44,883 bases of DNA, from the IMG/VR virus record IMGVR_UViG_3300007538_000049, positions 1 through 44,883 of that record; one strand, 5' to 3'. A model generated the notes under the pieces. It did not search any database, was not told the origin of the DNA, and saw only the letters and a list, made by a program, of their open reading frames with translations. The position numbers and the translations under genes are program-made. Within the stretch, counting starts at the first letter, position 1, and each line of letters starts with the position of its first letter. This DNA comes from a virus. This document shows, one piece after another, positions 23,086 to 41,027 of this stretch.

Positions 23086-23090
23086 AACCT

Positions 23091-23343: not shown

Positions 23344-23344
23344 T

Positions 23345-24655: not shown

Positions 24656-24694
24656 TGAACTAAAGTCTTTATTTGTCATTGAATTTTGTTTATT

Positions 24695-24707
24695 GTTATA
24701 GTATAAT
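24695..24707 (+). promoter_or_regulatory. GTTATAGTATAAT -10-like element
   Basis: A TATAAT box (24702-24707) within GTTATAGTATAAT, 29 bases before the ATG at 24736; it begins an operon of oxygenase genes. A looser variant of the recurrent motif. Confidence 0.45.
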
Positions 24708-24735
24708 TATGTATTATGTTTAGGAAGGGTTTCAT

Positions 24736-25848
24736 ATGAGCGATACAATGAGTGCGCAGCAGCAAGAACAGCAGGATTATGATTTACCCCCGGGTGCTTT
24801 TCTCTCTAATATAATATTTCCAGATACACCTATTATTGGTGATGATGAATTAAAAGAAATATCAGAGTTCAAAGTTGAAAACCTTGGCGGTGGAATTCTA
24901 ATATTTAAAAACGTACTTAAGTTTGATGAAGAACCGGTATACCAGTATCTAGATGACAGAGCTGCGAAGTCTCATCAAAATAGGTGGGAATATATTGAAG
25001 CTGAAGATGGTGAGACTTACGGTATAAATGAAGATGGGTTCAGATATAGACCAGAAGACATTCCCGCTACGCCTGTTAGAATTCTTCATCCGATAGATCC
25101 AGATACACCTGATAATATTCGTGACTTTTTCTATAATATGGAAGATACTATTTATAAGTGTCTGATTAAGTATGTTGATCATTTTCCTCTTATCGTAGGG
25201 TGTTTGTGGTGGAAAAATAGGGGCCACATTCTTAGGTATCAAGACCAAGGTGTGCTGGGTGCCCATTGTGATAATGATACAAACTATAAAGTTACAGAAG
25301 GTGTTAGATATATGCCTAGGGGTCAGATGGCAGCCAGACAAACGTGTGGAGCATTAGTGTATCTAAATGATTCTGTTGATTCTGAGGATGATTTAGACGG
25401 TAGAAATTTTGTTGGTGGTCATTTGAGATTCTTCCACTTAAATATTGACTATAAGCCAGAAAAAGGCGATATAGTTTTCTTTCCTACAAATTATATGGCC
25501 TCACATGATGTTGACAGAATGGAAGCAGGCGTTAGGTATAGTTATCTTTCTTTCTTTGGTCAGGGATCTCCTCATAGAGAGGCAAATATAGAAATAGCTG
25601 AAACAGATGCCTCTACCCAATGGTGTCCTGCTGTGTGGATGAACAATATATACGATGACTATGAGCGCTACTGTAAGTCTGAGTACTCAAGATTTACGAC
25701 TGGTGAAGAGACCTATATTGGTATAAACCCAGTCTATCAGGGTAGATGTGTTGCTCAGTATGGTACAACTCATGAGGCGGAGGAGATTCCTGGAACGGAC
25801 GCTGCGAACTGCGGCACTGATCCGGTTATCATAGGTCAGGAGCAGTAA
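24736..25848 (+). CDS. 2OG-Fe(II) oxygenase, long WWK-GH subfamily (copy 7)
   Basis: This 370-residue protein is the longest oxygenase here. An N-terminal extension of about 45 residues precedes a domain shared by the next three genes. Its mark is CLWWKNRGHILRYQDQG, followed by H177-x-D179 (GAHCDND), a long loop with a VYLNDSVDSE strand, H257 (ASHDV) and R267 (GVRYSY). The C-terminal 90 residues include several Cys. AGGAAGGG precedes the ATG. The four tandem copies suggest duplication followed by substrate specialisation. Confidence 0.86.
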   Translation: MSDTMSAQQQEQQDYDLPPGAFLSNIIFPDTPIIGDDELKEISEFKVENLGGGILIFKNVLKFDEEPVYQYLDDRAAKSHQNRWEYIEAEDGETYGINEDGFRYRPEDIPATPVRILHPIDPDTPDNIRDFFYNMEDTIYKCLIKYVDHFPLIVGCLWWKNRGHILRYQDQGVLGAHCDNDTNYKVTEGVRYMPRGQMAARQTCGALVYLNDSVDSEDDLDGRNFVGGHLRFFHLNIDYKPEKGDIVFFPTNYMASHDVDRMEAGVRYSYLSFFGQGSPHREANIEIAETDASTQWCPAVWMNNIYDDYERYCKSEYSRFTTGEETYIGINPVYQGRCVAQYGTTHEAEEIPGTDAANCGTDPVIIGQEQ

Positions 25849-26736
25849 ATGTTACCCAATAACTGTGAGTTGTTGGGTAATGGAATAGTTTTATTTAGGA
25901 ATAAAATTAATGTACCTGATGGCATAACTGATTATCTTTTAAAACTAAAAAACGATGCTAGGGAAAAGCATTATTCATATGTTTATGATGAAGATGGGAA
26001 TGCTCTTTATGCTACTAACAAAAGTGGACATCGTTTTAAGATAGAGGATATTGATAAAAGCTGCAGTAGAATAACTGATTTTTATGATCACTTTGAATCA
26101 GACTGGCAGAAAGAATTCTTTTCTCACTGTGAAGAGATGCTGTACCGATCTATGATTGAGTATGCATCAATATATCCTATGATCTTACCTTGTTTATGGT
26201 GGAAAACTCAGGGGCATGTACTAGCATATGGGGCTGGGGCAGATCTAGGTCTGCATTGTGATAACGACATAAATTTTTCTCCTGGATTTGAGCCAGACTA
26301 TCAACTAGGGATACGTCATGTACTAGCTGCAATAACGTATTTCAATTCTTCTACAGAAGAATATGAGGATGGGAATTTTACTGGTGGAGAGATTTACTTT
26401 CCTTACGCAGAATTAGTTTATAAACCACAGCGTGGTGATGTGTTAATGTTTCCAGCTAACTTTATGTGTGCGCATGAAGTTAAGGGTGTAAAAGAGGGCA
26501 ACAGATTTGCTTATCTTGAATATTTTGGTCAGGGTTCTTCCGATCCGACTAGGGGTGTTCAGGTTTCTGATCCAGTAGATGGAATATTTGGTGGTCAGGT
26601 GTGGATGCCAGATCTATTTGTTGATTATCAAAATTATGTGATAGAATTTTATGGAGAAACTTATGATGATCATAAGTTAATGCCGGTTAGTAGAGATTTT
26701 CATAGTTCTAATACAAAGCAAGAGGTTGAGAAATGA
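25849..26736 (+). CDS. 2OG-Fe(II) oxygenase, WWK-GH subfamily (copy 8)
   Basis: This 295-residue protein starts directly after the previous stop. Shared marks: CLWWKTQGHVLAYGAG, H136-x-D138 (LHCDND), GNFTGGEIYFPYAEL, H209 (CAHEVKG) and R219 (NRFAYLEYFGQGS). It lacks the long N-terminal extension of the previous gene. The pattern YxGYxF with DIxxxxxR around residues 58-75 recurs in all four copies and may shape the active-site lid. Confidence 0.86.
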   Translation: MLPNNCELLGNGIVLFRNKINVPDGITDYLLKLKNDAREKHYSYVYDEDGNALYATNKSGHRFKIEDIDKSCSRITDFYDHFESDWQKEFFSHCEEMLYRSMIEYASIYPMILPCLWWKTQGHVLAYGAGADLGLHCDNDINFSPGFEPDYQLGIRHVLAAITYFNSSTEEYEDGNFTGGEIYFPYAELVYKPQRGDVLMFPANFMCAHEVKGVKEGNRFAYLEYFGQGSSDPTRGVQVSDPVDGIFGGQVWMPDLFVDYQNYVIEFYGETYDDHKLMPVSRDFHSSNTKQEVEK

Positions 26737-27614
26737 TTTATAATGATGTTGAGGCCGAGCATTTAGGTGGCGGCGTTGTGCTTTTTCGAAATGCTGTAGA
26801 CTACGATTTTGATTGGACTTATGAGATTTTTTGTAGAGCCTTAGACGAAGAGCAGGCTGCTATGTATGATATAACTTCTGATCCAGAAACTGGTGAGGAA
26901 ACTTACATGAATAAGAGTGGATATCTTTTTAGTAAAGACTCTATATATTCCATGCCCAGAAGGGCCTCAATGATGCATCAAGACCCTAGGGATGAGGTTC
27001 ACAAGTTATTCAATTTTTTAGAGGAGTCTAAAGATAAATATTTATTAAAATACTTTGAGATGTTTCCTTTAGCTTACAATTGTGTATGGTGGAAGGTAAA
27101 GGGGCATGTAGTATCTTATAGGGATGGCGTGTACCTTGGTAGTCATTCTGACACAAGCGCAGAGTATATATATGGAGTACATTCTACTAGAGATGAACTA
27201 GCTCTTAGGAGTATAATTTCTTGTCTAGTTTATGTTAATTCTTCCGTTGATTCTGAGGAGGAGTTGACAGGTAACAATTTTACTGAAGGTCATCACTATT
27301 TTAATTACTTAGATATTGATTACCAACCTAAAGCAGGAGATATACTTATGTTTCCTTCTAATTTCATGGCTGCGCATGAAGTTAAGCCTGTTGGAAAGGG
27401 GCATAGGGTTTCATATCTCGGATGGTATAGTCAGGGAACTCCTAATCCTTCAGTGTATGAAGACGTATGTGACCCAGTTAAAGAGCCGGAAAAAGCAAGA
27501 ATTAGTACTAACGTCTACATGCCCACACTCAGAGAAGATTATAGAGAATATTTATTAGCCAAAGGTTATGATAAGAGCTCTGAGCAGTACAAGGTAACAA
27601 ATCTTAACACGTAG
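26733..27614 (+). CDS. 2OG-Fe(II) oxygenase, WWK-GH subfamily (copy 9)
   Basis: This 293-residue protein overlaps the previous gene as ATGA. Marks: CVWWKVKGHVVSYRDG, H138-x-D140 (SHSDTS), H215 (AAHEVKPVGKGHR) and R225. The usual TGGE core strand reads TEGHHYFNYLDI, so this copy has changed near the active site. The rest of the fold appears complete, so it is probably active with altered specificity. Confidence 0.85.
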   Translation: MIYNDVEAEHLGGGVVLFRNAVDYDFDWTYEIFCRALDEEQAAMYDITSDPETGEETYMNKSGYLFSKDSIYSMPRRASMMHQDPRDEVHKLFNFLEESKDKYLLKYFEMFPLAYNCVWWKVKGHVVSYRDGVYLGSHSDTSAEYIYGVHSTRDELALRSIISCLVYVNSSVDSEEELTGNNFTEGHHYFNYLDIDYQPKAGDILMFPSNFMAAHEVKPVGKGHRVSYLGWYSQGTPNPSVYEDVCDPVKEPEKARISTNVYMPTLREDYREYLLAKGYDKSSEQYKVTNLNT

Positions 27615-27657
27615 GAAAGTATATGGGCTTTGATAAAATGAAATGAAAGAGGTTATT

Positions 27658-28440
27658 ATGGAATCAGTTCACTTAGGTATGGGTATAGTCGCATGTGAAA
27701 ATGTTTTAGACATTGATAATGATTTAGTTACAGAGTACACATCTTGGCTTAAGAAGAATGAAGAAGATTCTTTTACATATTACGAGGAAGATGGCGTAAA
27801 GTATGCTAGAAATAAGACAGGATTTAAATTTAGATTAGATGATATTAATTTAGCTCCACAAAGATTTCTGGATCTTAAAGGGGAGCAAATAGGCAGAGCG
27901 CCAAAGCCTGAATGGGTAGAATTTATACAAAAGTGTGAGGATGCAATCTACGATGCGTTGGTTGAGTACTGCGCCTACTTTCCAGATGCTGCCACTACAG
28001 CTTGGTGGAGACCAAAAGGCCATATCGCTGGTTATGAAGATGGTCAGCATATAGGTGCTCACTGTGATGATCAGATTCCTTGGGAATGGGGATCTAGACC
28101 TCAAAATCAAGTCTCTATGCACAACAGCACAAGTGTAAATTTATATTTAAATGAATGCGGAAAAGACTATGAGGGTGGGCAAATGCATTTTCCAAATATA
28201 AATGTTGAGTATAGTCCTAAGCCTGGGACTGTATTAATATATCCTTCTAATTACATAGGTAGACATGAGGTGTACCCAGTTACTAGTGGAGCTAGGTACG
28301 CATTTTTGACAATGGCTTGTTATGGTGTAGACTTTGAAAGAGATGAAGTTATAGGTCAAGAAAATCCATATAGAATATGGATGCCAGATCTTATAGAGGA
28401 TTCTAAAGCTAGAATGATGTCAGGAAATTATAAGTTATAA
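27658..28440 (+). CDS. 2OG-Fe(II) oxygenase, WWK-GH subfamily (copy 10)
   Basis: This protein has 260 residues from the ATG at 27658, which has AGAGG upstream; an ATG at 27643 lacks such a site. Marks: TAWWRPKGHIAGYEDG, H135-x-D137 (AHCDDQ), a DYEGGQMHFPNINVEY strand, H203 (GRHEVYPVTSGAR) and R213. It is the most divergent of the four tandem copies. The stop overlaps the start of the TauD-like gene (TAATG). Confidence 0.85.
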   Translation: MESVHLGMGIVACENVLDIDNDLVTEYTSWLKKNEEDSFTYYEEDGVKYARNKTGFKFRLDDINLAPQRFLDLKGEQIGRAPKPEWVEFIQKCEDAIYDALVEYCAYFPDAATTAWWRPKGHIAGYEDGQHIGAHCDDQIPWEWGSRPQNQVSMHNSTSVNLYLNECGKDYEGGQMHFPNINVEYSPKPGTVLIYPSNYIGRHEVYPVTSGARYAFLTMACYGVDFERDEVIGQENPYRIWMPDLIEDSKARMMSGNYKL

Positions 28441-29318
28441 TGAAAATTTATAAGTTGTTAGCCAACTCATATGAGGACTTACTATTTAGCGCCGAGTCAA
28501 TTCATTCTGCTTTAATTAATGGTAAAGCCGTTGTTGTTCCTTCTATGGACTTAAAACCTGATGAGCAGATGGAGATAATGAAGTCGGTTTACTCTTGTGA
28601 ACCAATTGATCCAGAGCAGGTGGGAGGGGCAAACTTTAAGCAAGGTCACTTCCATGAGGGTCAGGTCAAGTATGGTCCTGACAGCACTCCTGATGAACTT
28701 CTAAGGTATGTGCATAGCAACTGGCATTCAGATGAAAGTCCCATATCTGATCCTGAAACTTCGATTCCAACATTTATAAGTATGAACATGAAAGTTTTTA
28801 CTTGCTCTCCCGATTGCGGTAAAACTGTTTTTGTAGATAAAGAAGAAATGTTTGAAGATCTGCCGCCTAGGCTGAAGAAAATTTTAGGTAAATACAATAT
28901 GATCTCACTTTCTGGGGGTCCTTCTAGGGATGAAGAGATAGCTACAAGCAGCCTGCTGGATTTTGATACAACGTTACCAGGAATAGACCATGACAATGTT
29001 ATGTGGTCTATTAGAAATTATCCAGCACTATGCAACCATCCTGTTACAGGAAATGTATCTCTTAACATTATGAGTGCTTTTTCAAACAGGTTACTATCCT
29101 CTAATGCAGATCTATGTCTGGAGTACTGTACTTACATTGAAGATTATTTAAAAGATTCCAATAATTGGGTTACGTGGTCGTGGTCTGAAGGAGATTTTTT
29201 ATTGTGGGATAATAGAAATGTTATTCATAGCTACTCTGGAGGATGGATTGAAGGTCAAAGAATCTTCAATAGATCTGACATAGGTAAAAGTAAACTTTAT
29301 TACGATAGTAATTTATGA
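28440..29318 (+). CDS. TauD/TfdA-family 2OG-Fe(II) dioxygenase (copy 11)
   Basis: This 292-residue protein belongs to a different branch from its neighbours. Marks: SNWHSDESP with H96-x-D98, HPVTGNVSLNI near residue 200, then SEGDFLLWDNRNVIHSYSGG with H263, and an Arg-containing RIFNRSDI end. These match the TauD/TfdA family, whose members hydroxylate small molecules such as taurine or aryloxyalkanoates, and also peptidyl carriers or amino acids. The substrate cannot be told. It is coupled by overlaps on both sides to an oxygenase and to the WhiB-SGNH fusion. Confidence 0.88.
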   Translation: MKIYKLLANSYEDLLFSAESIHSALINGKAVVVPSMDLKPDEQMEIMKSVYSCEPIDPEQVGGANFKQGHFHEGQVKYGPDSTPDELLRYVHSNWHSDESPISDPETSIPTFISMNMKVFTCSPDCGKTVFVDKEEMFEDLPPRLKKILGKYNMISLSGGPSRDEEIATSSLLDFDTTLPGIDHDNVMWSIRNYPALCNHPVTGNVSLNIMSAFSNRLLSSNADLCLEYCTYIEDYLKDSNNWVTWSWSEGDFLLWDNRNVIHSYSGGWIEGQRIFNRSDIGKSKLYYDSNL

Positions 29319-30532
29319 TTGATATTTATGGAACAGTAAATAATATGGATAAGATTAAGCTTCCAGATACTGATGCGTTTAGTGGTGCTTCCTGTGCAGG
29401 TATGTCTATTAGTGAACTGGAAGCAGATCCACCCTGCTTATCAGATTGCCCAGCAGTGGTAGATTGCCTTCATTATGCTGTTAATAGCAACATTGATCAC
29501 TATATTGCTGGGATGAATTATGAAGAAAAGTGTGAGTGGATAGACAAAGCTCTTTTGTCTGGGGAATCCAAAAATGATATTACATATAGAAGGTGCTATC
29601 AGCATATTTTGTTTATGAAAAATCATAGATTAGCAGATTCTAAAACTTATTTATTTGAAAATGAAATAAACAACGAAAATATAGACTATAAGTCGTTAAG
29701 CTTTGATGCAGAAGTCAGAATTCAAGACCAATCTGAACCAAGAATTGATGATGTTAAAGACTTACCAAAAATTTATCAAGACTTAGGCTGGCATGATGCG
29801 GAAGAGTCTATATCTTACAGGGTAAACGAGCATAAGTATGTTGGTTCAAGTTTTGTTCAAGATCCTGATCTCTTAGTGCTCGGAGGACAAGAGAGTATTC
29901 CCGTTGGCCTTCCTCAGTCGTATGCCTGGACAGGGTTGTTATCAGATATGAGAAATATTAAAATAAATAATATGTCTTTGGTAGACGGCAGCTTACATAA
30001 GTTGTCTAAAAACTTTTTTTATCATCTAAATAATTTTGGTGTTCCTAAAAAAGTTATAATTCTAGTTTCAAAATTAAATAACTATAATTATCCTTTAGAG
30101 GTAGATTCTAAAGTTGGTAGAAGAATTTTTTATAATCATTCTATAAATTGGAATAATGGATATGGGCACCCTGAAAAGATAATGGATTGTTCAGTAAAGA
30201 ATGTTGAATTTAGAAAAGACGAAGAGCACAAAGCTATTTTAGAGTCTTTTTCTATACTATACAATATGCAAGCCGTTTGTAAAGTTTTGGGTTGTAAGTT
30301 TATTGTTCTATCCTTGCAGGGTGATGTGTATAATATAATTAAAGAGTGTAATCACATAGATTCTTTAATGATTTTCGATTTGCAAAGTCAATTAGATTTA
30401 AATAAATGCAGCGACCTATGTGATGTTGACGGGCTGAAATTTTATGAGTATAATTCAGGTGGAACTAGGCCTGGGGTTCATGACTCTATACATTTGGCAA
30501 ATTTGGTAGATAGGAGTTTAGATTGGAATTAG
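29315..30532 (+). CDS. WhiB-like domain fused to an SGNH-hydrolase-like domain
   Basis: This protein has 405 residues. Residues 20-80 resemble WhiB, an iron-sulfur regulator found in Actinobacteria and their phages. Cysteines C27, C41, C45 and C51 carry a CPAVVDCLHYAV stretch like the WhiB C-x5-C block, and DHYIAGM lies at the GxWGG turn. The spacing C41-x3-C45 is one longer than usual. Residues 180-405 resemble SGNH/GDSL hydrolases: LLVLGGQESIPVG at block I and PGVHDSIHLANLV with D390 and H393 at block V. The expected nucleophile Ser appears to be Gln 192. ATG overlaps the previous stop. Both domain calls are mine by eye; the WhiB part is the firmer. Confidence 0.62.
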   Translation: MIDIYGTVNNMDKIKLPDTDAFSGASCAGMSISELEADPPCLSDCPAVVDCLHYAVNSNIDHYIAGMNYEEKCEWIDKALLSGESKNDITYRRCYQHILFMKNHRLADSKTYLFENEINNENIDYKSLSFDAEVRIQDQSEPRIDDVKDLPKIYQDLGWHDAEESISYRVNEHKYVGSSFVQDPDLLVLGGQESIPVGLPQSYAWTGLLSDMRNIKINNMSLVDGSLHKLSKNFFYHLNNFGVPKKVIILVSKLNNYNYPLEVDSKVGRRIFYNHSINWNNGYGHPEKIMDCSVKNVEFRKDEEHKAILESFSILYNMQAVCKVLGCKFIVLSLQGDVYNIIKECNHIDSLMIFDLQSQLDLNKCSDLCDVDGLKFYEYNSGGTRPGVHDSIHLANLVDRSLDWN

Positions 30533-30698
30533 TCGGTTTTGATCATGACATATGTGTCATTGATGATTTTTTGACGGGATAGATCTCCTGCTTGAAAAGG
30601 TAAATGCAGGCAAGCTAGACTACCATAAGGTAGAAGGTGACTGTATTGATGGGTATACCTTTATGCTGGATCAGGAAGAAGAAGAGCATGCTTTATGA
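30523..30698 (+). pseudogene. Small gene interrupted by a frameshift in a T6 run
   Basis: A TTG at 30523, six bases after AGGAG, opens a frame reading MELVGFDHDICVIDDF that stops at 30580-30582. If the T6 run at 30567-30572 had one more T, the frame would continue as VIDDFFDGIDLLLEKVNAGK and end in EEEEHAL at 30696-30698. That stop overlaps the next start as ATGA. The 58-residue product resembles the N-terminus of the 2OG-Fe oxygenases. It may be a sequencing slip, a decayed gene or programmed slippage. Confidence 0.6.
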
Positions 30699-31693
30699 AT
30701 TTTGAAGAAGTTTACCCTAGAATTTTTGTATACAAAAATGTTTATGATGAAATTGATAAACTGTTTGAATGTGTAAAGTTTATTGAAAGTAATTCTACAG
30801 GCGAATATATATTTGAGAAGTGGAAAGATTGGTTTGTATTTGGGACTTACTGTTCTGCTATTCCGAATTTTGATGAAGACCCGAATTTTGATGAAGACGA
30901 AATTGCAGACGACAGTGAACTGTTTGAGATAGAGAAGTATGTTTACCACACTCTAAACGATGTAACAAAAAAAGTTGTTGGTCATTATATGGACTATAAT
31001 CAAATTGATTGGCCAGATAATTCCTTTGTCACATCTCCAAATATTGCTAAGTATTTTGATATAAAAGAATTATCTTCTGAACACAATCCTTTGGACAATC
31101 TCAGGATGCAGTTTCATACCGATTATCCTATAGCTGAATGGTTCTGGCCTAAGAGAAAATTTTTAATAACTGCTAACACTTATATTAATGACGATTACGA
31201 TGGTGGTGAGGTTATTTTTCTTCATAATGAAAACATTATTCCAGTAAAACCAAAGGCTGGAGAAATTATCGTTTTCCCTTCTGGCTCACCTTTGTATCCA
31301 AAGGCTCCGGAAAGAGAGCCTTACTTTCATGCTGTTAACGGTATATCTAACGGAGAAAAATATTTCACAAGATCATATATTCAATATGAAACTACTGACA
31401 CAACAGTTTGGGATCAGAAAAGATCTGAGTTTAACTCGGAAGAAGAGTGGGATTTATATATACAAACTTTAGTTAGAGGTGGTCATAATACTGCATCTGT
31501 CTATATGGGTGATCCCCCTGAGGATGGGGATGTACTTTATGATCTGCATAAGAAAATGTTTGTATTGGATAGGTATAAAGAAGGTGAGAAGTTTTGGATT
31601 TCTATGACACCTTTAGCAACAGAACTCTATGATATAGATGATAAGCATCACTATATACCTAGGTCTGAGCACTGTGTTCCTGAACCGGAATGA
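30695..31693 (+). CDS. 2OG-Fe(II) oxygenase, large (copy 12)
   Basis: This 332-residue protein has ligands H141-x-D143 (MQFHTDYP) and H212 (YFHAVNGISNGEKYFTR), with K222 or R226 for 2-oxoglutarate. The YINDDYDGGEVIF strand is typical. It carries long inserts: residues 55-75 include a tandem PNFDED-PNFDED duplication, and a C-terminal 110-residue extension follows the core. The start overlaps the stop of the frameshifted frame before it, so the two may once have been a pair. Confidence 0.86.
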   Translation: MNFEEVYPRIFVYKNVYDEIDKLFECVKFIESNSTGEYIFEKWKDWFVFGTYCSAIPNFDEDPNFDEDEIADDSELFEIEKYVYHTLNDVTKKVVGHYMDYNQIDWPDNSFVTSPNIAKYFDIKELSSEHNPLDNLRMQFHTDYPIAEWFWPKRKFLITANTYINDDYDGGEVIFLHNENIIPVKPKAGEIIVFPSGSPLYPKAPEREPYFHAVNGISNGEKYFTRSYIQYETTDTTVWDQKRSEFNSEEEWDLYIQTLVRGGHNTASVYMGDPPEDGDVLYDLHKKMFVLDRYKEGEKFWISMTPLATELYDIDDKHHYIPRSEHCVPEPE

Positions 31694-31891: not shown

Positions 31892-32251
31892 ATGCCTCTG
31901 TATCAAAAACGTTTAGTTGGACCTTCTACCTTAACAACCTCTAGTGCCGATTATTATACCGTTCCGCAGGGAACTGTGACCATAGTTAAGGAAATAATAC
32001 TTTGCAACTATTCTTCAGCCACAACAACAGTAACTATTTACTGTAAGCCAGCTGGAGAAACTTTAGCGGATTCTCATATATTCTTTAACGACATATCGCT
32101 TTCCGCTGATGAAACATTGTCCTTATCAACATCTCTAGTCCTTAATAATAACGGTTCAACAGCGGGTGCTTCTAATTCTGATCAGATAGTAGCTATATGT
32201 GGCGCAGGGTCGTCAGTGAACATTATTGTTAACGGTATAGAGGAAACTTAA
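31892..32251 (+). CDS. Small beta-sandwich virion-type protein
   Basis: This 119-residue protein starts MPLYQKRLVGPSTLTTSSADYY and has the alternating pattern of an all-beta domain (TVTIVKEIILCNYSS, TVTIYCKPAGETLAD). Similar small proteins sit next to phage tail-fibre or adhesin genes and are thought to be virion structural. An AGGGAG site precedes the ATG. The TAA overlaps the next start (TAATG), so it is coupled to the adhesin genes. Confidence 0.7.
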   Translation: MPLYQKRLVGPSTLTTSSADYYTVPQGTVTIVKEIILCNYSSATTTVTIYCKPAGETLADSHIFFNDISLSADETLSLSTSLVLNNNGSTAGASNSDQIVAICGAGSSVNIIVNGIEET

Positions 32252-33027
32252 TGGCTGGTTTTAGAAGGAATAATAGATTTGGTGTAGGAAAAAGCTATTT
32301 TGACTCGTCCTCTTCTTTAGAGGATGAAACTTTGGCTTTGATTAACAACCTTGATGTAGCTAATGCACTGTTCGGCTCTGCAGATGATGGTAGTGCTACT
32401 TTGGATGGAAATTCTACTGTCTTAGGAATGATTCCTACAGGTAGCACCTATACTATGGAAAGAGATTTATTTTTTTATAATTTGACTATAAGTTCTGGAA
32501 TACATTTAAAAACAGCTGGTTTTAGAGTTTTTGTAAGAAATACTTTAACTCTAAACAATAATTCTAGAATTGGTTTCACTTCCGGTTTCACTACTGCTGG
32601 GTCTATAGCTCAGGGTGGCACTGCTGCAGAAGCCGTTACGCATAGTTTGGGAGGCTCTACATCGTACAGGACAGCTACCGCTCCTTCACCTGAAGAGGGC
32701 GGAACAAATTACTATAAACAGCCTTTAAATGCTACTAGGGGATACTCAATTACCGCTGGTGTTGGTTACCCTGTTTTCTTGAGGGGTGGAGCAGGGGGTC
32801 AAGTTGGATCTGGTGGTGGTGTAGTGATAGTTGCCGCAAGGTACATAGTCGTCAACTCCGGCACCGCTTACTTTAGTGCTCCAGGGGATTCTGGTGCTAG
32901 TGGTGGCGGTGGTGGTGTTATAGTTGTAGTTTCTTCAAATGATGTTTTAAATAGCAGTGTAACTACGGATGTTTCAGGTGGGACAGGTGGCTCAAGCGGT
33001 AGTGTAGTTTATTGTCAGGTGGCGTAG
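32251..33027 (+). CDS. Gly-rich tail adhesin, short form
   Basis: This 258-residue protein has three parts. An N-terminal region reads MAGFRRNNRFGVGKSYF. A beta-helix-like segment is shared with the next gene (DLFFYNLTISSGIHLKTAGFRVFVRNTLTLN). The C-terminus is Gly-rich (GGAGGQVGSGGGVVIVAA, then GASGGGGGVIVVV). Glycine-rich phage adhesins of this layout often fold into polyglycine sandwiches that bind outer-surface receptors. It is a compact paralogue of the gene at 33029 and lacks that gene's His-rich insertion. Confidence 0.75.
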   Translation: MAGFRRNNRFGVGKSYFDSSSSLEDETLALINNLDVANALFGSADDGSATLDGNSTVLGMIPTGSTYTMERDLFFYNLTISSGIHLKTAGFRVFVRNTLTLNNNSRIGFTSGFTTAGSIAQGGTAAEAVTHSLGGSTSYRTATAPSPEEGGTNYYKQPLNATRGYSITAGVGYPVFLRGGAGGQVGSGGGVVIVAARYIVVNSGTAYFSAPGDSGASGGGGGVIVVVSSNDVLNSSVTTDVSGGTGGSSGSVVYCQVA

Positions 33028-33028
33028 C

Positions 33029-36000
33029 ATGGCAGGTCCGATAAGAAAAGTAAACAATAAATTTAGTTTAACTAAAGCTGAAAAAACATTAACTTCTGGA
33101 ATAGATGAGCTTTTTGGTGATGGATCAGATGGAGATTTAACTGTTTCCTCTGGACAAACTATATATCTATCAAGTGATATGTACTACAAGAATTTAACCG
33201 TAGAATCAGGTGGAATTCTTTTTACGAATGGTTTTAGAATATTTGTAAATGACACTTTGATCAACAATGGTACCATAGGGTTGCCGTCTAACATTTCGGA
33301 AACAGCTAATTCTTCAACTGTTTCCAGAAGATCAGATATCGTAAAGAGTTATGCGTGGGGAGAAGGTGACCAATCTCAATCTTTGGCTGACTACGAGATG
33401 TCAGATTTAGATAAGGCAATAAATGGTTATTTGATAGCAGCAGACGGCTCTATACATGCCGTATCTGGTGGGCAGCCGGGTGAATTTGTTGATACTCAGT
33501 TGACTGAAGCTGAGCAAGGGTCGCCAGGCAATCCGGGAAATCCAGGTAGCAAATTCGGTATTGCTCCAGGTGAGCCTGGTGGCCCTGGTAATCCGGGCAA
33601 TCCTGGGTCTGATGGAAATGAAGCTACAGTGGGCACTACAGTAACTAGGGGTAAAGGCGGCGGCGTTGTGCTTTTGATCGCTAAAAATGTTTCTGGCTCT
33701 GGATCACTAGTCAGTTCTGGCACTGCTGGCTCTGTTTCTGGCTCCAATACAGATGGATTGGATGGCAATCCTGGCAATCCTGGCAATCCTGCTCCAGATA
33801 TAGATGCATTTGCGAATACTGGTTCTCCTTATGAGGCTGGAATAAACGCCGGTGTTTTTTATGTTCCTGCAGGTCAACATCAACATCCTGCTGGAACTGG
33901 TCCTATATATTTGGCAACGGGGGGAAAATTTAGCCACACTGCTACTGTTTCCGGCGGAAATTACAATACCTCTCGTCATTATCATGGCGACCTTTATGCT
34001 GAAGATGATCTTTATGATGAATTAAATGCTTCTAATTTTCCAACAACTGCAAATTACTTTAATTTATCTTTAAATGCAGGTTATCACAGCCATCCTGGTT
34101 TTAATCCTTCGCCAATAACGGATCCAGTTTTTCAGGATCATCCGCCTGCTAACAGGCCTCAGGTGCAGAATCATACAGCGATATATACACCGGCAGGTGT
34201 AAATGCAGGGGAGCACAGGCATGGTGACGGTGGTCATTTAGCAAATACCCATAATGCTAACATTAATGATGGAACAGGTGTGCCTCATAATCAGCACACT
34301 GGACCGATTACTGGACATTTACCTGTTCCTCAAAATTATCCTGTGCTAGCTCAAAATGCAGGTTTTATTAACCACGATGCTGTTTACGTTCAGGGTGGAA
34401 TAAATGCAGGCTATCACACACATCCAAGCAGTGGTCATTTAGCTCCAACACATAATGCGCCGGTGAATGCAACCCATGCTCCTCATAATCAGCACACAGG
34501 GCCTATAACTGGTCATTTACCTGTTCCGCATAATTATCCTGCTCCAGCTATGAATGCTGGTTTTATTAACCATAATGCTAATTATGTGCAACCGGGTTTT
34601 AATGCCGGATATCATCATCATGGCGCTGGGTTAGTTCCTCCTTCTACGGTATTAAATGATCCCAATGCGGGTAATCCTTATCATACTCATAATTCTGGCC
34701 ACCATGCTGCTCAAACACATCATTATCACACTCCCCATAGCTATAATCATGCTTCTGGAAGTCATGCGCCGAATCCTACTTCAAATCACAACCATAATGC
34801 TAATGTTAATGCCGGCGGAACACACGGTCAATCTGGTTATCATACGCATCCATCTAGAACATTTACCCATACCAGCGCCAATCCTGGTCATTTTTATCCT
34901 TCGGATCCGCTGTATCCTTCTACTAGGCATTACCATTCTGGTCACAGGTATAATTCAAACCCATTTCATGCTGACGGCACAAGATTTTATAGACACGTTA
35001 TAAATTCTGGAAATACCCCGCATAATGCGGAGCCATACAATCCTTACGTTGTTGGACCACCAACACCTAGCGGTATCAAGGACCCGGTTCCTAGTCCTCA
35101 CAATGCGGCGGTCAGTGTTCACGTTAGCTCTCACCACAATGCCGGTAGTGGCGAAATACATGTTCCAGCTAGTCATCATTCCGCATCTGGTAATCATCCT
35201 GGTGGATCTCATGCTCCAGATCCAACACCTACAAGAACATACCCTCATACTGGAACCACTTATCAAACTCATAATTCAGGAAACTATGATCATGGTGCCG
35301 GTGTTGCCGATAATCATTTTGCTAATGTTTTACCAGATCCAATAGTTGCAAGAGGGCATCATAATACCGGCTATGGTCACACAGGGTCACCTTATACTGG
35401 ATACTATCCAGCTGGTCATGGTCAGATAAATAGTCACGTTAATCAAGGAAACTATGACCATGGCGCAGGTCAAGCTGATACCCATTTTGCTAATGTTTTA
35501 CCGGATCCTATAGTTGCAAGGGGTCATACGCCAAGCAGTGAGCCTTTGGCAAATTTTGGACATACTGGGTCTCCTTATCCTGGCTATTATCCAGCTGGTA
35601 CAGGAAACATAAATACACACCATAACACGGGAACTCATCCGCATGGGGGCGGTAATGTTGATGAGCATTTTGGCCCTTATTTGCCAAATACTATACAGAC
35701 TAGAGGTTACACCCCTCATGTTGGTACACCTACAGCAAATTCTGGTCACGATGGGTCACCTTATGACGGTTACTGGCCCGCTGGTCAACACAATCATGCT
35801 ACAGGTCCTGTTTCTCCACTTAATGATCCTACGGCAATTTCTGCATCTGATTTATCTGGTCCAGACTTTTATGGACCAACAGGAACAGGTCCATTTGGAA
35901 GTGGTAGTCATACCGGTACAGTTTTTGGTCCAGGTCACAATCCGGGGTATCACGAGGGCACTAGGGGGGTGGCTCATTTTGTGGGCACCTCTAATGGAAC

Positions 36001-36400
36001 AAACTTCGCTGCTCATGTATTAGATCCTTCCATAACCTTAGTTGGTCAAAGCCTTGTCCAGAGTACTGGTGGTTCACAAAATCCAGTTTCTTTTACATCA
36101 GGAATACATTATCATCCAGCTTATGATATAAGTCATGCAACTGGTGAGCCAGCCCCAGGTAATCAACATACAGGAAGTCCGTATCCAGCAGGTGTGAATC
36201 AATCCTATTTTAATTTATTTTACCAAGGTGGAGATGGGGGCACGGGTGGAGATGGGGGAGCGGGATCTGTAGTTAATGCTCCAGCGTCTTCGGATCCTGG
36301 GTATGACGGTGGAATAGTGGTTGTATCCATGTCTGCCGGAAATGTTGCAAATCAGTTTGCTCACTCTAATTTTGCTAAATCTATAATTTTAGACAGTTAA
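33029..36400 (+). CDS. Giant His-rich adhesin
   Basis: This protein has 1123 residues. The N-terminal 90 residues and the C-terminal 80 (GGDGGTGGDGGAGSVV, GIVVVSMS) match the short adhesin before it. A collagen-like G-N-P-G-N-P-G patch lies near 160-185 and 245-257. Between about 280 and 1050 lies an insertion of very unusual make-up. By my hand count the whole protein has about 95 His, with many H-x-H motifs (HQH, HYH, HTH, HRH, HNH), and repeated modules such as GHLPVPHNYP and HFANVLPDPIVARGH. H-x-H motifs in T4 gp37 and phage spikes bind iron, so metal binding is likely but inferred. Probably the receptor-binding tip. Confidence 0.8.
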   Translation: MAGPIRKVNNKFSLTKAEKTLTSGIDELFGDGSDGDLTVSSGQTIYLSSDMYYKNLTVESGGILFTNGFRIFVNDTLINNGTIGLPSNISETANSSTVSRRSDIVKSYAWGEGDQSQSLADYEMSDLDKAINGYLIAADGSIHAVSGGQPGEFVDTQLTEAEQGSPGNPGNPGSKFGIAPGEPGGPGNPGNPGSDGNEATVGTTVTRGKGGGVVLLIAKNVSGSGSLVSSGTAGSVSGSNTDGLDGNPGNPGNPAPDIDAFANTGSPYEAGINAGVFYVPAGQHQHPAGTGPIYLATGGKFSHTATVSGGNYNTSRHYHGDLYAEDDLYDELNASNFPTTANYFNLSLNAGYHSHPGFNPSPITDPVFQDHPPANRPQVQNHTAIYTPAGVNAGEHRHGDGGHLANTHNANINDGTGVPHNQHTGPITGHLPVPQNYPVLAQNAGFINHDAVYVQGGINAGYHTHPSSGHLAPTHNAPVNATHAPHNQHTGPITGHLPVPHNYPAPAMNAGFINHNANYVQPGFNAGYHHHGAGLVPPSTVLNDPNAGNPYHTHNSGHHAAQTHHYHTPHSYNHASGSHAPNPTSNHNHNANVNAGGTHGQSGYHTHPSRTFTHTSANPGHFYPSDPLYPSTRHYHSGHRYNSNPFHADGTRFYRHVINSGNTPHNAEPYNPYVVGPPTPSGIKDPVPSPHNAAVSVHVSSHHNAGSGEIHVPASHHSASGNHPGGSHAPDPTPTRTYPHTGTTYQTHNSGNYDHGAGVADNHFANVLPDPIVARGHHNTGYGHTGSPYTGYYPAGHGQINSHVNQGNYDHGAGQADTHFANVLPDPIVARGHTPSSEPLANFGHTGSPYPGYYPAGTGNINTHHNTGTHPHGGGNVDEHFGPYLPNTIQTRGYTPHVGTPTANSGHDGSPYDGYWPAGQHNHATGPVSPLNDPTAISASDLSGPDFYGPTGTGPFGSGSHTGTVFGPGHNPGYHEGTRGVAHFVGTSNGTNFAAHVLDPSITLVGQSLVQSTGGSQNPVSFTSGIHYHPAYDISHATGEPAPGNQHTGSPYPAGVNQSYFNLFYQGGDGGTGGDGGAGSVVNAPASSDPGYDGGIVVVSMSAGNVANQFAHSNFAKSIILDS
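34300..34630 (+). repeat. Repeated His-rich module (GHLPVP-NYP-AGFINH-NAGYH)
   Basis: Two nearly parallel copies read HNQHTGPITGHLPVP, NYP, NAGFINH and NAGYH in the same order within the His-rich insertion. Confidence 0.75.
35280..35790 (+). repeat. Repeated His-rich module (NYDHGAG-HFANVLPDP-GHTGSPY)
   Basis: Three copies, the first two very alike: NYDHGAG, HFANVLPDPIVARGH, GHTGSPY-GYYPAG. The third (THPHGGG, EHFGPYLPNTI, GHDGSPYDGYWPAG) is diverged. Confidence 0.75.
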
Positions 36401-36447: not shown

Positions 36448-36711
36448 ATGGCCTTTTTTGATAATCTCCCGTTGGAGACAAAATCTAATATAATTGAAAC
36501 ACAAAGACTTTCAAGTCTTCAGCAGATGTATGTTATACTAATACGACTAGGAATAAATCCTGAATCTTTTGACCCTTCTTCTTTTGAGGAGCAAAACTAT
36601 GAAGATCAGGGAGATGTTACCAATCAAGAAATGTTGGTTGATTTAATTAATCAAATAAATTTATTAACAAATATATCAACAGGCTTAGATTCAGCTACTC
36701 CATCTTCATAG
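36448..36711 (+). CDS. Small acidic helical protein, unknown
   Basis: This 87-residue protein starts MAFFDNLPLETKSNIIETQ, with AGGAG ten bases before the ATG. It contains a helical LQQMYVILIRLGINPESFDP and an acidic second half (EEQNYEDQGD). The LGINPESF phrase recalls NFNPENF in the minus-strand protein at 40989, a weak similarity. Function unknown. Confidence 0.65.
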   Translation: MAFFDNLPLETKSNIIETQRLSSLQQMYVILIRLGINPESFDPSSFEEQNYEDQGDVTNQEMLVDLINQINLLTNISTGLDSATPSS

Positions 36712-36759: not shown

Positions 36760-37470
36760 ATGAACAATGTAGAATTAGAGTTCATAGGTGGTAAGTCTTC
36801 TTACATTTTAGAGGCTAAAAATGCTATAGATAGAACTGTTTGTCAAGAATTAATATCAGAATGTGTTAAGTATTACGATAAAATCTTTAACCCAGGCCCT
36901 ACTTTGGGAGGCTTAAATCCCTTTATAAAATCTAGTATGGATTTTAATTTTAGCGGTGTACAAGCCAGAGAATTAGGTGTTCCTTTTGATAATTTTTACA
37001 AGTATGAGAAAATCATAGAAGAAGCTCTTTTTGGTTGTTTAGCTTTTTATCAAAAAACTTATAACGAGTTATGGAATTGGCCAGGTATATGTGATACTGG
37101 TTTTCGTCTTCAGCATTATGTAAAAAATTTTGGTCACTATAGGCAGCATTCCGATGGGTCCCCTTGGGGTGGACCAAATGCTGTTAGTAGGGTATTGGCA
37201 GGCATCGTTTACCTTAATGATGTAGAGGTTGGTGGAGACACGTATTTTCCTTATCATGACGTAAGCGTTGCCGCAAAATCTGGCACTATTGCACTTTTCC
37301 CAACGTCTTGGACTCATCCACATCAAGGAAATCCAGCAATATCTAATGATAAATGGATAATAAGTACTTTTTATCTATGCAGTACAAACTCTTCATATCA
37401 AACCGAAGAAACTATTGAGGTTAAAGAGGAGGACTTAAAGCTTAAAAATGGAAAAGTTGAAGATGAATGA
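36760..37470 (+). CDS. 2OG-Fe(II) oxygenase (copy 13)
   Basis: This 236-residue protein has H130-x-D132 (RQHSDG), the VYLNDVEVGGDTYFPYHD strand, then THPHQGNP with H186 or H188, and K198 in NDKWIISTF. This is closer to the canonical prolyl 4-hydroxylase C-terminus (H-x-G-x-P...K) than the other copies are. The last 25 residues are highly charged and overlap the start of the next gene by about 20 bases. It starts the oxygenase-halogenase operon running to 41027. Confidence 0.86.
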   Translation: MNNVELEFIGGKSSYILEAKNAIDRTVCQELISECVKYYDKIFNPGPTLGGLNPFIKSSMDFNFSGVQARELGVPFDNFYKYEKIIEEALFGCLAFYQKTYNELWNWPGICDTGFRLQHYVKNFGHYRQHSDGSPWGGPNAVSRVLAGIVYLNDVEVGGDTYFPYHDVSVAAKSGTIALFPTSWTHPHQGNPAISNDKWIISTFYLCSTNSSYQTEETIEVKEEDLKLKNGKVEDE

Positions 37471-38107
37471 AAAGTATTTTGATGAAATAACTGGTGACTA
37501 TTTACTGGTAAGGCCGGATCCATTTTCTATTAAAGATGTTTTTGAAAAAGATTACTTTGATAAACTGAAGAAATATTTGTATGAAAAAAAAGAGGATAGA
37601 GAAGGATTTGTCTACGATGCAAACTTTGGTAGAACAACATACCATTCATCTCGTGCAAATCAAAATGAGATTTTTATAGAGTCCGCACGAAAACTTGTTC
37701 CTAAAGCAAGAGAGATATTTAATTCTGAAAAACTAGATTTTTCATATTGCCTCTTCTCTGTATATAGGGGAAATAGAGCTAATTTATACTATCATGTTGA
37801 TGATAACGCATGCACATATACCATAGATTTATGTGTTCATCAAAACACTCCTTGGCCCCTACATGTGGTTGACCAACAGTTCATACTTGACGAAAATGAA
37901 GCTGTATGTTATTATGGGGAGGATCAATATCATTGGAGGGAAAAATTTCCCGACCCAAAAAATAACGAAGTAGCTATGATATTTTATCATTTTGTTGATT
38001 CTGATCACTGGTTTTTTTCTGGTGAACAAGATGCACACTCAACTATAGTGGAGAGAAGAAGAAGTAGTATGGAAAAATATTATAACAACAGGGATGTATT
38101 TAAGTAG
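37448..38107 (+). CDS. 2OG-Fe(II) oxygenase-like protein, divergent (copy 14)
   Basis: This 219-residue protein has H116-x-D118 (YYHVDDN) and H162 in YHWREKFPDP; YTIDLCVHQNTPWPLHV and ENEAVCYYGEDQ form the strands between. The arrangement (HVDDN, TIDLC, WPL, HWR, FHFV) fits a bacterial family of iron/2OG-type enzymes, but it differs from the GGE/YFP type of its neighbours. The TWPL/HWR layout has no clear Arg/Lys ligand by eye. An in-frame ATG at 37463 is an alternative start. It overlaps the previous gene. Confidence 0.7.
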   Translation: MEKLKMNEKYFDEITGDYLLVRPDPFSIKDVFEKDYFDKLKKYLYEKKEDREGFVYDANFGRTTYHSSRANQNEIFIESARKLVPKAREIFNSEKLDFSYCLFSVYRGNRANLYYHVDDNACTYTIDLCVHQNTPWPLHVVDQQFILDENEAVCYYGEDQYHWREKFPDPKNNEVAMIFYHFVDSDHWFFSGEQDAHSTIVERRRSSMEKYYNNRDVFK

Positions 38108-38120
38108 AAGAAGGAATTAT

Positions 38121-38714
38121 ATGCAATACGAAGAGATAGCACCGTGTATTTTTTATTATAAAAATGTTTTTACAGAAGGTAAAAGACTTATTGATTTAGT
38201 TGAAAAAGAGTGCTCAAATGAATGGGGTTACCTTAATTGGGTAAGGGCTCAGGTTGGTGATGGATATATTTCTGATGTAAGAACATCTATGGCATGTGAA
38301 CTTGCCCCTATCTCTTCCCAGGAAATAGGTGATGAATCAGTTGTCCCACTTGTAGAAACTTGGTTAAATATTTTTAAATCTATAGACAAAGTCGTGTGGC
38401 ATTATAGGGAGGAAAATGAGCTTCAGTTAGAATCCGATGAAGGTTTTAGGGTTCTTAGGTATGGGAGAGGCGCAGAATATCGTGCACATCATGATCACGG
38501 ACCTGGAAACAGAAGAGTTCTTAGTCTTGTATCGTTTCTGAATGATGATTTTACTGGAGGTCAATTAGAATTTCCTAAGTTTGACGTTACAGTTCAGCCA
38601 GAAAAAGGGGCATGTGTTCTTTTCCCATCAAATTTCCCATATTTACACATAGCTCATCCTGCCGGTGTGGAAGATGGAACTGTTAAGTACTCTTTAGTTA
38701 CATGGTATAGGTGA
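38121..38714 (+). CDS. 2OG-Fe(II) oxygenase (copy 15)
   Basis: This protein has 197 residues from the ATG at 38121, which follows AAGGAA; an upstream ATG at 38094 lies inside the previous gene. Marks: H123-H-D125 (RAHHDHG), FLNDDFTGGQLEFPKFD, then LHIAHP with H176 or H179, and K189 near VKYSLVTWY. The stop overlaps the halogenase region by a few bases, so this oxygenase and the halogenase are probably co-expressed and may act on one molecule in turn. Confidence 0.85.
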   Translation: MQYEEIAPCIFYYKNVFTEGKRLIDLVEKECSNEWGYLNWVRAQVGDGYISDVRTSMACELAPISSQEIGDESVVPLVETWLNIFKSIDKVVWHYREENELQLESDEGFRVLRYGRGAEYRAHHDHGPGNRRVLSLVSFLNDDFTGGQLEFPKFDVTVQPEKGACVLFPSNFPYLHIAHPAGVEDGTVKYSLVTWYR

Positions 38715-38719
38715 TCCCT

Positions 38720-40225
38720 ATGCCGAACCAAAAACATATAGTTATAGCTGGAGCTGGTACCGCTGGTTTGACTTCAGCTTTAATTTTTAGAAGAACTTTT
38801 CCGTCTTATAATATAACTGTAGTTCATTCTGAAAAAAACCCTATCATAGGTGTTGGAGAAGGTTCTACTGAGCACTGGAGATGGTTTCAAGACTATGTTG
38901 GGATTGATGTTCATGAAATGATTTGTTACGCAGATGTAACTCATAAATATGGTATTAAGTTTGAAGATTGGACTTCTCATACTCCTAGCTATTTTCATTC
39001 AGTTTCTGGTTCCGGATTAACTGCAAACAATTTCTACGGCACTTACGCATTCTGCTTAGAAAACGACCTGTTGTTGACCAACACTTTTTCCTGGAAAGGA
39101 ATAATTAAAGATAGGGTAATTCTTAATGTTGACGAAGAAGGTGTTGACAGAACTCACTATGGTACAAATCAATATCATTTTGATACACATAAATTAAATC
39201 TTTATTTAAGAAATTTTTGCTCATCAAACGGTATAAATTTCGTTAATGGTGAAATAGAAAAAGTTATCAAAGATGACAAAGGATATATAAGTGCATTAAA
39301 AATTTCTTCGCTAAAGTCACCCTTGCCCGGAGATTTTTTTATAGATTCAACAGGTTTTCAAAGAGTATTGATGAAAACTATGCAAAATCAAGAGTACACT
39401 TCTTACAGTAAGTATTTACCTTGTGATTCCGCTTTAGTTTTTCAAACTCCATTAGATGAATATGGAAAAATACATCCCTACACAATAGCAAAAAGAATGA
39501 ATGCAGGATGGATGTGGGAAATACCAACTCAATCAAGAAGAGGGAATGGATATGTATTTTCCTCTAAACACATATCGAAAGAGGAGGCTTTAAAGGAAGC
39601 TTCAGATAAAATTGGTACAGAAATAGATGATTATAGGTTTATAGATTTTAAAACAGGTTATTGGAATAAAACTTGGCAAAAAAACTGTGTGGCGATAGGA
39701 TTATCTTCCGGTTTTATTGAGCCTTTAGAGGCAACTTCTATATCAATTTCAATACAACAGGCAAAGCTTTTGTGTTCCTATATTCCAACTTTTGATGACG
39801 GTTCAGATATTATGGTTGAAGAATATCATAGGATAATGGATTCAATTATGGAGAATTGTGTCTCTATGATAGCACTTCATTATGTTTGTGACAAAGAAGA
39901 TACGTCAATGTGGGCGGAGCAAAAAGATAAAGAAAAGCCAGAACTGTTAAAGCGTTTATTGCATTTATGGAAAAACAAAACTCCAGAAAATCACGACATA
40001 AAAACAACAGGATTTGAACTTTTTCATGCCCCTCACTTTTGGCATGTTGCGCAAGGGCAGGGAGTTCTAAGTAGAGATATCGCATCAATACAACTTGATG
40101 CGTATGGATCTAGGCCAAGTTCAATAGATCATATAAATAAACTAACTTCTCACCAGATATCTTTGAAGGAGGCGGATCATGCCGAAGAGCTCAAAAAAAC
40201 CAGAGATTCAATTAGTCAGTCCTAA
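38720..40225 (+). CDS. Flavin-dependent tryptophan-halogenase-like protein
   Basis: This protein has 501 residues from the ATG at 38720; a GTG at 38711 is in frame. FAD-binding IVIAGAGTAGL is near residue 10, then IIGVGEGSTEHW. The catalytic Lys is K76 in HKYGIKFEDW, the WxWxIP hallmark is WMWEIP at 264-269, and EPLEATS has E337. These match the flavin-dependent halogenases, including cyanophage VirX1. They use FADH2, O2 and a halide to halogenate aromatic rings. The substrate is unknown: a small molecule, or an aromatic residue of a peptide. A flavin reductase is not in the window, so it must come from the host. Confidence 0.88.
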   Translation: MPNQKHIVIAGAGTAGLTSALIFRRTFPSYNITVVHSEKNPIIGVGEGSTEHWRWFQDYVGIDVHEMICYADVTHKYGIKFEDWTSHTPSYFHSVSGSGLTANNFYGTYAFCLENDLLLTNTFSWKGIIKDRVILNVDEEGVDRTHYGTNQYHFDTHKLNLYLRNFCSSNGINFVNGEIEKVIKDDKGYISALKISSLKSPLPGDFFIDSTGFQRVLMKTMQNQEYTSYSKYLPCDSALVFQTPLDEYGKIHPYTIAKRMNAGWMWEIPTQSRRGNGYVFSSKHISKEEALKEASDKIGTEIDDYRFIDFKTGYWNKTWQKNCVAIGLSSGFIEPLEATSISISIQQAKLLCSYIPTFDDGSDIMVEEYHRIMDSIMENCVSMIALHYVCDKEDTSMWAEQKDKEKPELLKRLLHLWKNKTPENHDIKTTGFELFHAPHFWHVAQGQGVLSRDIASIQLDAYGSRPSSIDHINKLTSHQISLKEADHAEELKKTRDSISQS

Positions 40226-41027
40226 AACTTTTAAAGATATTCCAGAAGTAAAGCCGGGTCAAATATTTATTACTCCATGCACGGATCTTTTACTTGATCC
40301 ATCTATTATGCCTTTAGATAACTATAAAAATTGGCCTCAATGGTGGAAAGACATGGGAGCACAAGAAGGCTCGTTAAGAAGATGTGCTGGTACTTCAGAT
40401 TATATATCTCTAGGTTTTACTGTAAGATCATGGGCAAAAATGGATTTTAGGCCTTCTGCAGATAGGTCCCACTGGGAATCTAAGGTAGATATATCCCATC
40501 CTCATCCGTTTCAAATACAAGGATTTAATTATTCTCAAACAGGATCTTGTCCCGTAACAGAAGTTAGAGATTTGAAGGAAGCTAATTATATAAAGATAGT
40601 TAGCCCTTGGCTTTATAAAACTGCTCCAGGATGGTCGTGTTTATTTTTACCACCTTTGTGGGAGCCCAATTCTAATTATACCTTGCTTCCATCGATAGTT
40701 AATACCGACTACTATCATCACGCCAATGTTGTTCTAAATGTTATTGGTAAAGAAGGTTTTTCTATAATGGAAGGAGATCCGCTCCAGCATGTTATACCAA
40801 TACCGAGAGGTGAGGGGTTGGAGTATTTTTGGGGTGACAGTAGGGCTTTTGAATTTTTAGATCAAAAAGGCTTTGGTACGGTATTTCACCCTCATAATAT
40901 GAAGGGTAAATATAAGAAAACTCAAAGAATTTATGACTACGAATCGCCTGATATTTCTACATTAGGTAAAACTAACTGGAAAGTTAGACTAAGAAATTTT
41001 TTCAGAAATATATTTAAGATCTTCTAA
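40179..41027 (+). CDS. DUF6065-like protein (copy 2)
   Basis: This 282-residue protein starts inside the halogenase end, after AAGGAGG seven bases from the ATG. It shares layout with the DUF6065 gene at 21466: a WWKDMGAQEGSLRRCAG start, then IVSPWLYKTAPGWSCLFLPP, a SIVNTDYYHHANVVLNVIG strand, and MEGDPLQHVIPIPRG. The N-terminus is Lys/Pro-rich. Its function is unknown; the repeated pairing with oxygenases suggests a shared pathway. It overlaps the convergent gene at 40989 by 39 bases. Confidence 0.72.
   Translation: MPKSSKKPEIQLVSPKTFKDIPEVKPGQIFITPCTDLLLDPSIMPLDNYKNWPQWWKDMGAQEGSLRRCAGTSDYISLGFTVRSWAKMDFRPSADRSHWESKVDISHPHPFQIQGFNYSQTGSCPVTEVRDLKEANYIKIVSPWLYKTAPGWSCLFLPPLWEPNSNYTLLPSIVNTDYYHHANVVLNVIGKEGFSIMEGDPLQHVIPIPRGEGLEYFWGDSRAFEFLDQKGFGTVFHPHNMKGKYKKTQRIYDYESPDISTLGKTNWKVRLRNFFRNIFKIF

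Follow-up and report, generated by a model that had tools for sequence, protein, structure and literature searches.

A His-rich block in a phage tail adhesin and the oxygenase-halogenase cassette behind it: possible oxidative tailoring of a host-binding loop

Why does a phage adhesin carry a long segment crowded with His, and what do the oxygenase and halogenase genes directly behind it do? The question is raised by the Gly-rich adhesin encoded at positions 33029-36400 (+) of IMG/VR virus record IMGVR_UViG_3300007538_000049, a stretch of 44,883 nucleotides (nt) that was analyzed at its full length and is called the window below. A first-pass annotation had suggested that the segment might relate to iron piracy through metal receptors. 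We favor instead, with somewhat more credence than doubt, the reading that the genes behind the adhesin form an oxidative tailoring cassette which would finish the host-binding loop chemically, because the halogenase and the oxygenase follow His-type adhesins in a conserved order and because their content tracks the type of block. The adhesin gene has the following features.

33029..36400, + strand: Gly-rich adhesin with a His-rich block, 1123 amino acids (aa) (open reading frame, composition, family comparison)
33863..36214, + strand: His-rich block, residues 279-1062 (composition, purifying selection between repeat copies, orthologue comparison)
34269..34614, + strand: two 148-nt repeat modules, 76% identical, within the block (direct-repeat search)
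35272..35710, + strand: three 88-nt repeat modules within the block (direct repeats, codon-change counts)

The open reading frame (ORF) is intact, and its exact count of 95 His agrees with the approximate number reached by hand in the first-pass annotation, which had also described a His-rich block of about 800 residues inserted in a Gly-rich adhesin. The composition count confirmed such a block, since residues 279-1062 (784 aa), which lie between the Gly-rich parts, contain 93 of the 95 His at a local density of up to 15 per 60 residues. G, H, P, N, T, A, S, and Y make up most of the block, and charged residues are scarce. The repeated modules noticed earlier are direct repeats, 148 nt and 88 nt in length, and between their closest copies most differences fall at third codon positions. 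NG86 estimates of nonsynonymous (dN) and synonymous (dS) divergence were ~0.03-0.15 and ~0.8-1.2 in the three closest pairs, with dN/dS of ~0.04-0.12, and the two closest 88-nt copies are separated by 8 synonymous versus 3 nonsynonymous codon changes. Because the copies diverge mainly at third codon and synonymous positions, the block is under protein-level selection, and an artefact of a wrong reading frame is ruled out. Furthermore, when the window protein was compared with its orthologue in record L033, His was the best conserved of the common block residues, with 56 of 93 His kept (60%) against a block mean of ~36%. The statement that the ends of the protein match the short paralogue at 32251 held for the N-terminal domain (BLASTP, 35% over 113 aa, E 8e-10) but not for the C-terminus, for which BLAST gave no match and a generic Gly/Val pattern common to both was seen by eye. 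A second His-rich open frame of the window (18367-18714, 17 His in 60) lies in a different frame from the long ORF 16506-18683, which it overlaps, and probably arises as a frame artefact from a repetitive coding sequence.

The family was surveyed in a viral contig collection, in which the N-terminal domain was confirmed at 441 loci; the records are metagenomic contigs, and the best 80 of the 441 loci were read. Most of the long members among these 80 have a His-rich block between two Gly-rich regions, and the closest relatives of the window adhesin among them are L002 (identical over the 774 residues present in that record), L010, and L033. A short His-poor paralogue of ~230-265 aa adjoins the long adhesin across the family. 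A His block at the equivalent position was found in 46 distinct adhesins, the window's included, and these blocks mostly cannot be aligned to one another. Searches with the whole adhesin against Pfam, PHROGs, and the PDB returned nothing useful, and INPHARED gave no match. A sister group carries Tyr-rich blocks (L121:1949-4186, L117:4908-7139, L131:804-2714, L159:3220-4905, L160:3581-4924, and L154:3248-4924) with units such as repeated NYSY or YTAG, and its loci have 2-oxoglutarate (2OG) oxygenases without a halogenase. In L160, L154, L148, L127, and L159 the long gene stands before the short one, opposite to the arrangement at His-type loci. An additional N-terminal domain (DWFLPS and VRPVRMFSA stretches) precedes the shared domain in L003:6670-8817 and L068:2768-5893, and the His block of L004:6653-7942 also carries Cys-Cys pairs (CCTSGHHHACCSYHTHDACC). 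Two haloarchaeal virus adhesins (L089:2992-4209 and L090:2992-4161) have the N-terminal domain in common with bacterial-type environmental phages, a case, judged from sequence, of one tip domain occurring in viruses of different domains of life. As to the origin of the phages, PF00124 (psbA/psbD) was absent in all 34 records searched, so that a cyanophage origin is not supported; a search for T4 gp23 gave no match anywhere and was uninformative, its controls being also silent. One metagenome-assembled genome linked L201 and L203 to a Gammaproteobacterium, which may be a binning accident.

The abundance of H-x-H motifs, on which the earlier idea of metal binding was built, turned out to be a matter of composition. 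The window protein has 14 of them versus 10.9 +/- 3 in shuffles, and the 46 family blocks have 398 versus 390 expected, which is chance level; H-x-H was therefore dropped as a signature of the block. HxxH and HxxxH are depleted over the 46 blocks. The window block is enriched in [AS]-G-x-H-x-H (8 versus 0.2 expected), and the family-wide motif is H-[N/P]-A-G (103 versus 5.9 expected in the 46 His-type blocks). Y-x-A-G (26 versus 3.4) and F-x-A-G (11 versus 0.7) take the place of this motif in the Tyr-rich sister group, where S/N/T-x-A-G units are scarce.

The adhesin and its short paralogue belong to a cluster of genes on one strand, the other members of which surround them in the window as follows.

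31892..32251, + strand: f4, structural protein of 119 aa at the start of the conserved cluster (phrog_20100)
32251..33027, + strand: short His-poor adhesin paralogue, 258 aa (BLASTP E 8e-10 to the adhesin N-terminus)
36448..36711, + strand: f5, small protein of 87 aa directly 3' of the adhesin (family recurs in 17/24 loci)
36760..37470, + strand: 2OG-Fe(II) oxygenase 1 of the cassette (PF13640 1.2e-8; HxD...H kept)
37448..38107, + strand: f9, HxD...H protein (motif conserved by eye in 7 loci)
38094..38714, + strand: 2OG-Fe(II) oxygenase 2, prolyl-4-hydroxylase-like (PF13640 3.1e-14)
38711..40225, + strand: flavin-dependent (tryptophan-type) halogenase, 504 aa (PF04820 7.8e-102)
40179..41027, + strand: f2, dUTPase-fold protein related to DUF6065 (confident model; Foldseek)

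The order in the window is thus f4, short paralogue, adhesin, f5, oxygenase, f9, oxygenase, halogenase, and f2, and the enzyme genes overlap one another by 4-47 nt. Over the 24 loci compared, the usual order is f4, short paralogue, adhesin, f5, f6, oxygenase, in some cases a methyltransferase-like gene (f8), halogenase, and f2. Homologues of f4 occur in 20 of these loci, mostly just ahead of the short paralogue, and a homologue of f2 occurs in 23, directly behind the halogenase in almost all. The flanks outside the cluster are mostly singletons or unshared between records. Of 34 records, 33 contain a PF13640 oxygenase, which in the loci measured lies on the same strand, 355-1072 nt past the adhesin stop. 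The PF04820 halogenase was found in 41 of 45 records; three of those that miss it (G001, G004, and G051) stop a short way past the adhesin or the oxygenase, and the fourth (G035) is a control without His. The f2, f5, and f6 families are almost absent behind plain adhesins. The f5 protein matched nothing in Pfam or PHROGs, and f9, which has no Pfam match, is by its HxD...H motif probably a third Fe(II) oxygenase-like enzyme.

The enzyme content was then compared with the type of block. For control, a second search was made for plain Gly-rich relatives, and 50 records were tested: all 6 His-rich ones had both enzymes, while the remaining 44 had no halogenase, and 12 of them an oxygenase; those of the 12 that were read proved to be Tyr-rich long adhesins or short paralogues beside one. 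After dereplication, the halogenase accompanied 41/41 His-type adhesins (42/42 with L166), that is, all with a checkable downstream region, and 40/41 also had the oxygenase, the exception being L004. Tyr-type adhesins mostly had the oxygenase only, and 46 of 49 plain Gly-rich adhesins had neither, although a few negative records stop soon after the adhesin and part of the negatives therefore lack downstream coverage. When the halogenase was predicted from residue frequencies of the adhesin, the area under the curve was 0.998 for His, 0.90 for Pro, 0.58 for Tyr, and 0.54 for Trp, and at these values Trp and Tyr were rejected as the residue coupled to the halogenase. The link to Fe(II) enzymes that had been drawn earlier is therefore sound as a genetic one, with a prolyl-4-hydroxylase (P4H)-like oxygenase and a halogenase directly behind nearly every His-rich adhesin, but no result supports it in the form of iron piracy.

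The window encodes further genes of this kind. Immediately upstream of the adhesin cluster stands a 2OG-Fe(II) oxygenase gene array (18750-31693; PF13640 genes with one TauD), and the earlier tally of fifteen Fe(II) enzymes was about right, with 12 PF13640 members (11 above the Pfam cut-off), one TauD, and f9. The lineages with an oxygenase array and a complete adhesin (the window and L033) have the longest His blocks; elsewhere, records with 1-3 oxygenases carry shorter ones. A glutathione-peroxidase-like gene (22450-23085, PF00255) and a beta-1,4-glycosyltransferase (10888-11946, phrog_13126) are also present. The L004 locus, which has no PF13640 oxygenase, retains the halogenase and the methyltransferase-like gene.

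The enzymes themselves appear intact at the sites that matter for catalysis. The HxD...H facial triad is invariant in five aligned cassette oxygenases, and the best matches of their profile are bacterial collagen prolyl 4-hydroxylases (1.8e-16), with P4H structures at the head of the list. The window halogenase has the motifs GAGTAG, W-M-W-E-I-P, and H-K-Y-G-I; it and almost all of 20 relatives keep GxGxxG, W-x-[WF]-x-I-P, and the catalytic Lys region, the second motif being WxFxIP in three of the relatives. The f2 family has a dUTPase/dCTP-deaminase fold according to a confident model and Foldseek, and some members match PF19541 or PF00692. Two window genes, 40179-41027 and 21466-22191, are DUF6065-related, and the family behind the halogenase also accompanies Tyr-type adhesins.

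The window protein is most likely a Gly-rich receptor-binding tail adhesin and probably of the polyglycine-II type. The family alignment has the layout of the gp38 type, in which an N-terminal beta domain is followed by Gly-rich motifs that flank hypervariable segments, and in gp38 of PP01 and S16 the segments between the Gly-rich motifs serve as receptor loops on a polyglycine-II sandwich (PMC12892980). An AlphaFold model of a 386-aa relative, built with 31 sequences, had confident strands and packed Gly-rich flanks, with the His block unfolded (pLDDT ~37). Foldseek with the adhesin model found no match to gp38 of S16 or PP01 in the PDB (one meaningless hit), and for this reason that the adhesin works like T-even gp38 is something we infer, as we do its fold class, surface exposure, and receptor role; since the model is only partly confident, the missing fold match is weak evidence. 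A fold search of BFVD returned collagen-like proteins only, with poor superposition, and neither sequence nor fold search recognized a gp37-like needle.

These results suggest how the cassette might work. The large exposed hypervariable segment of the adhesin would be the flexible His block with its many aromatic-x-A-G units (H-[N/P]-A-G, with Tyr or Phe instead of His in the sister group), and the cassette enzymes would modify the adhesin ahead of virion assembly. The P4H-like oxygenase might hydroxylate Pro (or Asn/His) of the block and of GNPG repeats, and the flavin halogenase might act on aromatic residues of the loop, most likely His, so that the outcome would be chemically finished receptor-binding loops. 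That the cassette enzymes act on the adhesin seems to us just on the probable side. It is a more tentative proposal that His is the halogenated residue, and equally tentative is the full statement, in which tailed phages use enzymes from the genes just behind their own tail adhesin to halogenate and hydroxylate its His-rich loop. Related chemistry is known: a flavin brominase modifies ribosomal peptides, with disordered regions as its guide (PMC10858898), 5-bromohistidine occurs naturally in the skeletons of sponges (PMC8659048), and both Zn and halogens accompany the His/Gly-rich proteins of worm jaws (PMC13120676). An enzyme-substrate operon would be the simplest reading, although such precedents do not prove a modification here.

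Several points weigh against this reading. The proposed modification is deduced from gene content, and we know of no flavin halogenase that acts on peptidyl-His. The adhesins of L039, L201, and L203 have a halogenase yet are not His-rich by the cut-off used, L004 is without a PF13640 oxygenase, and neither the fold search nor a PDB sequence search matched the adhesin to gp38. In the parts scanned of the cultured halogenase phages HTVC008M, syn9, P-SSM2, Syn1, DSL-LC01, and S-H38, no credible His-rich structural protein was found, and therefore the coupling holds inside this adhesin family and not for all phage halogenases; a His-rich frame in S-H38 looks like a frame artefact of another gene. 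In addition, a tree of 97 adhesins made with the block left out splits into a group of 55 with aromatic blocks and a group of 42 plain ones; on it the halogenase label requires ~3 changes, with 2 independent pairs on well-supported branches, too few for a sign test. The Fisher p of 1.7e-25 for the association is not independent evidence because of these few changes; co-inheritance of one ancestral cassette could also yield it.

Such co-inheritance is the strongest alternative, although we consider it somewhat unlikely. The enzymes would then make or decorate a small molecule, a host glycan, or a nucleotide, as part of a host-interaction cluster inherited whole. The few changes on the tree fit this view, as do the similar enzymes that cyanophages have away from any His-rich gene, the dUTPase-fold protein next in the cluster, and prior proposals that phage halogenases serve antibiotic protection (PMC2984593) or metabolite or capsule decoration (PMC7824862). 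It is at odds with the mostly unshared flanks, with an oxygenase of the protein-modifying P4H type, and with enzymes that track the block type (both with His, the oxygenase with Tyr, neither with plain adhesins). The weight of oxidative tailoring comes from the persistence of the cassette amid turnover of flanks and block sequence, and from content that tracks block type. The linkage is conserved and follows substrate type, as expected of a protein-tailoring operon, with few independent events.

A metal-binding tip, in which the block would load iron (or Zn, Ni, Cu) and thereby stiffen the tip or engage metal or siderophore receptors as a "Trojan horse", is unlikely. Binding is chemically plausible with 93 His in one block, the enrichment of [AS]-G-x-H-x-H in the window recalls gp37-type tips, and the L004 block adds Cys pairs; furthermore, iron binding has been proposed from prediction for the fiber of the marine Alteromonas phage R22Y, which has six H-x-H (PMC11705849), and His/Gly-rich worm-jaw proteins bind Zn (PMC13120676). 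However, H-x-H is at chance across the 46 blocks, the block of a relative is predicted to be unfolded with no needle recognized, and a metal tip leaves the halogenase and the Tyr-for-His sister group unexplained. The iron piracy suggested earlier gained no supporting result. The block may also bind metal alongside being tailored, and halogenation could tune that binding. A plain low-complexity spacer, an uncharged flexible or pH-responsive loop built of His, Asn, Pro, and Gly with a composition that drifts under selection for receptor binding, would suit the family blocks (D+E 2.7%, K+R 2.3%, with much G, A, N, P, T, and S), their predicted lack of fold, and the replacement of His by Tyr, but it is quite improbable, as it accounts neither for the accompanying halogenase and oxygenase nor for the fact that His is better conserved than the other residues.

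Phage "tryptophan halogenases" came to light with early cyanophage genomes, and authors have guessed at different roles for them. The near-strict genomic coupling to a His-rich adhesin, of which we found no description in open-licence papers, gives them a concrete and testable substrate. If oxidative tailoring is correct, protein halogenation would occur on a part of the virion, one group of phage flavin halogenases would have its natural substrate, covalent chemistry on receptor-binding loops would give host recognition one more layer, and enzymes from nature would become available for the halogenation of His-rich protein segments.

Among known systems, the phage flavin halogenases (PrnA-like, including VirX1 of cyanophage Syn10) have family and catalytic motifs in common with the window halogenase. 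VirX1 has an open active site and a broad aromatic substrate range, and no biosynthetic cluster is listed for it (PMC8407142); the window enzyme differs in being nearer to Trp 5-halogenases (nearest PDB match 3e-60, versus 1e-35 for VirX1) and in the position of its gene behind a His-rich adhesin. The SrpI flavin brominase of proteusin ribosomally synthesized and post-translationally modified peptides and collagen prolyl 4-hydroxylases are precedents for such enzymes acting on ribosomal peptides and proteins (PMC10858898, PMC10286304), but SrpI modifies Trp, and phage structural proteins and His are not known substrates. The T4 gp37 tip has GxHxH-like units that are also found in the window block, whereas the family of the window shows no H-x-H enrichment. 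The Gly-rich adhesins of hafunaviruses (haloarchaeal tailed viruses), which are host-range determinants with hypervariable segments (PMC8651126), match the N-terminal domain (~50% over 54 residues, E 1e-3), and this relation, together with the tail-gene context, is suggestive of a fiber-tip position and a host-range role; their segments are not His-rich, and the PF13640 oxygenase was found in 0 of 2 records tested. T-even gp38 of S16 and PP01, with a beta-helix, a polyglycine-II sandwich, and hypervariable loops, is like the window adhesin in the order of parts (PMC12892980). The differences are that gp38 has short loops, while the segment of the window adhesin reaches up to ~780 aa and is His-rich, and that the companion genes of the window adhesin encode an oxygenase and a halogenase.

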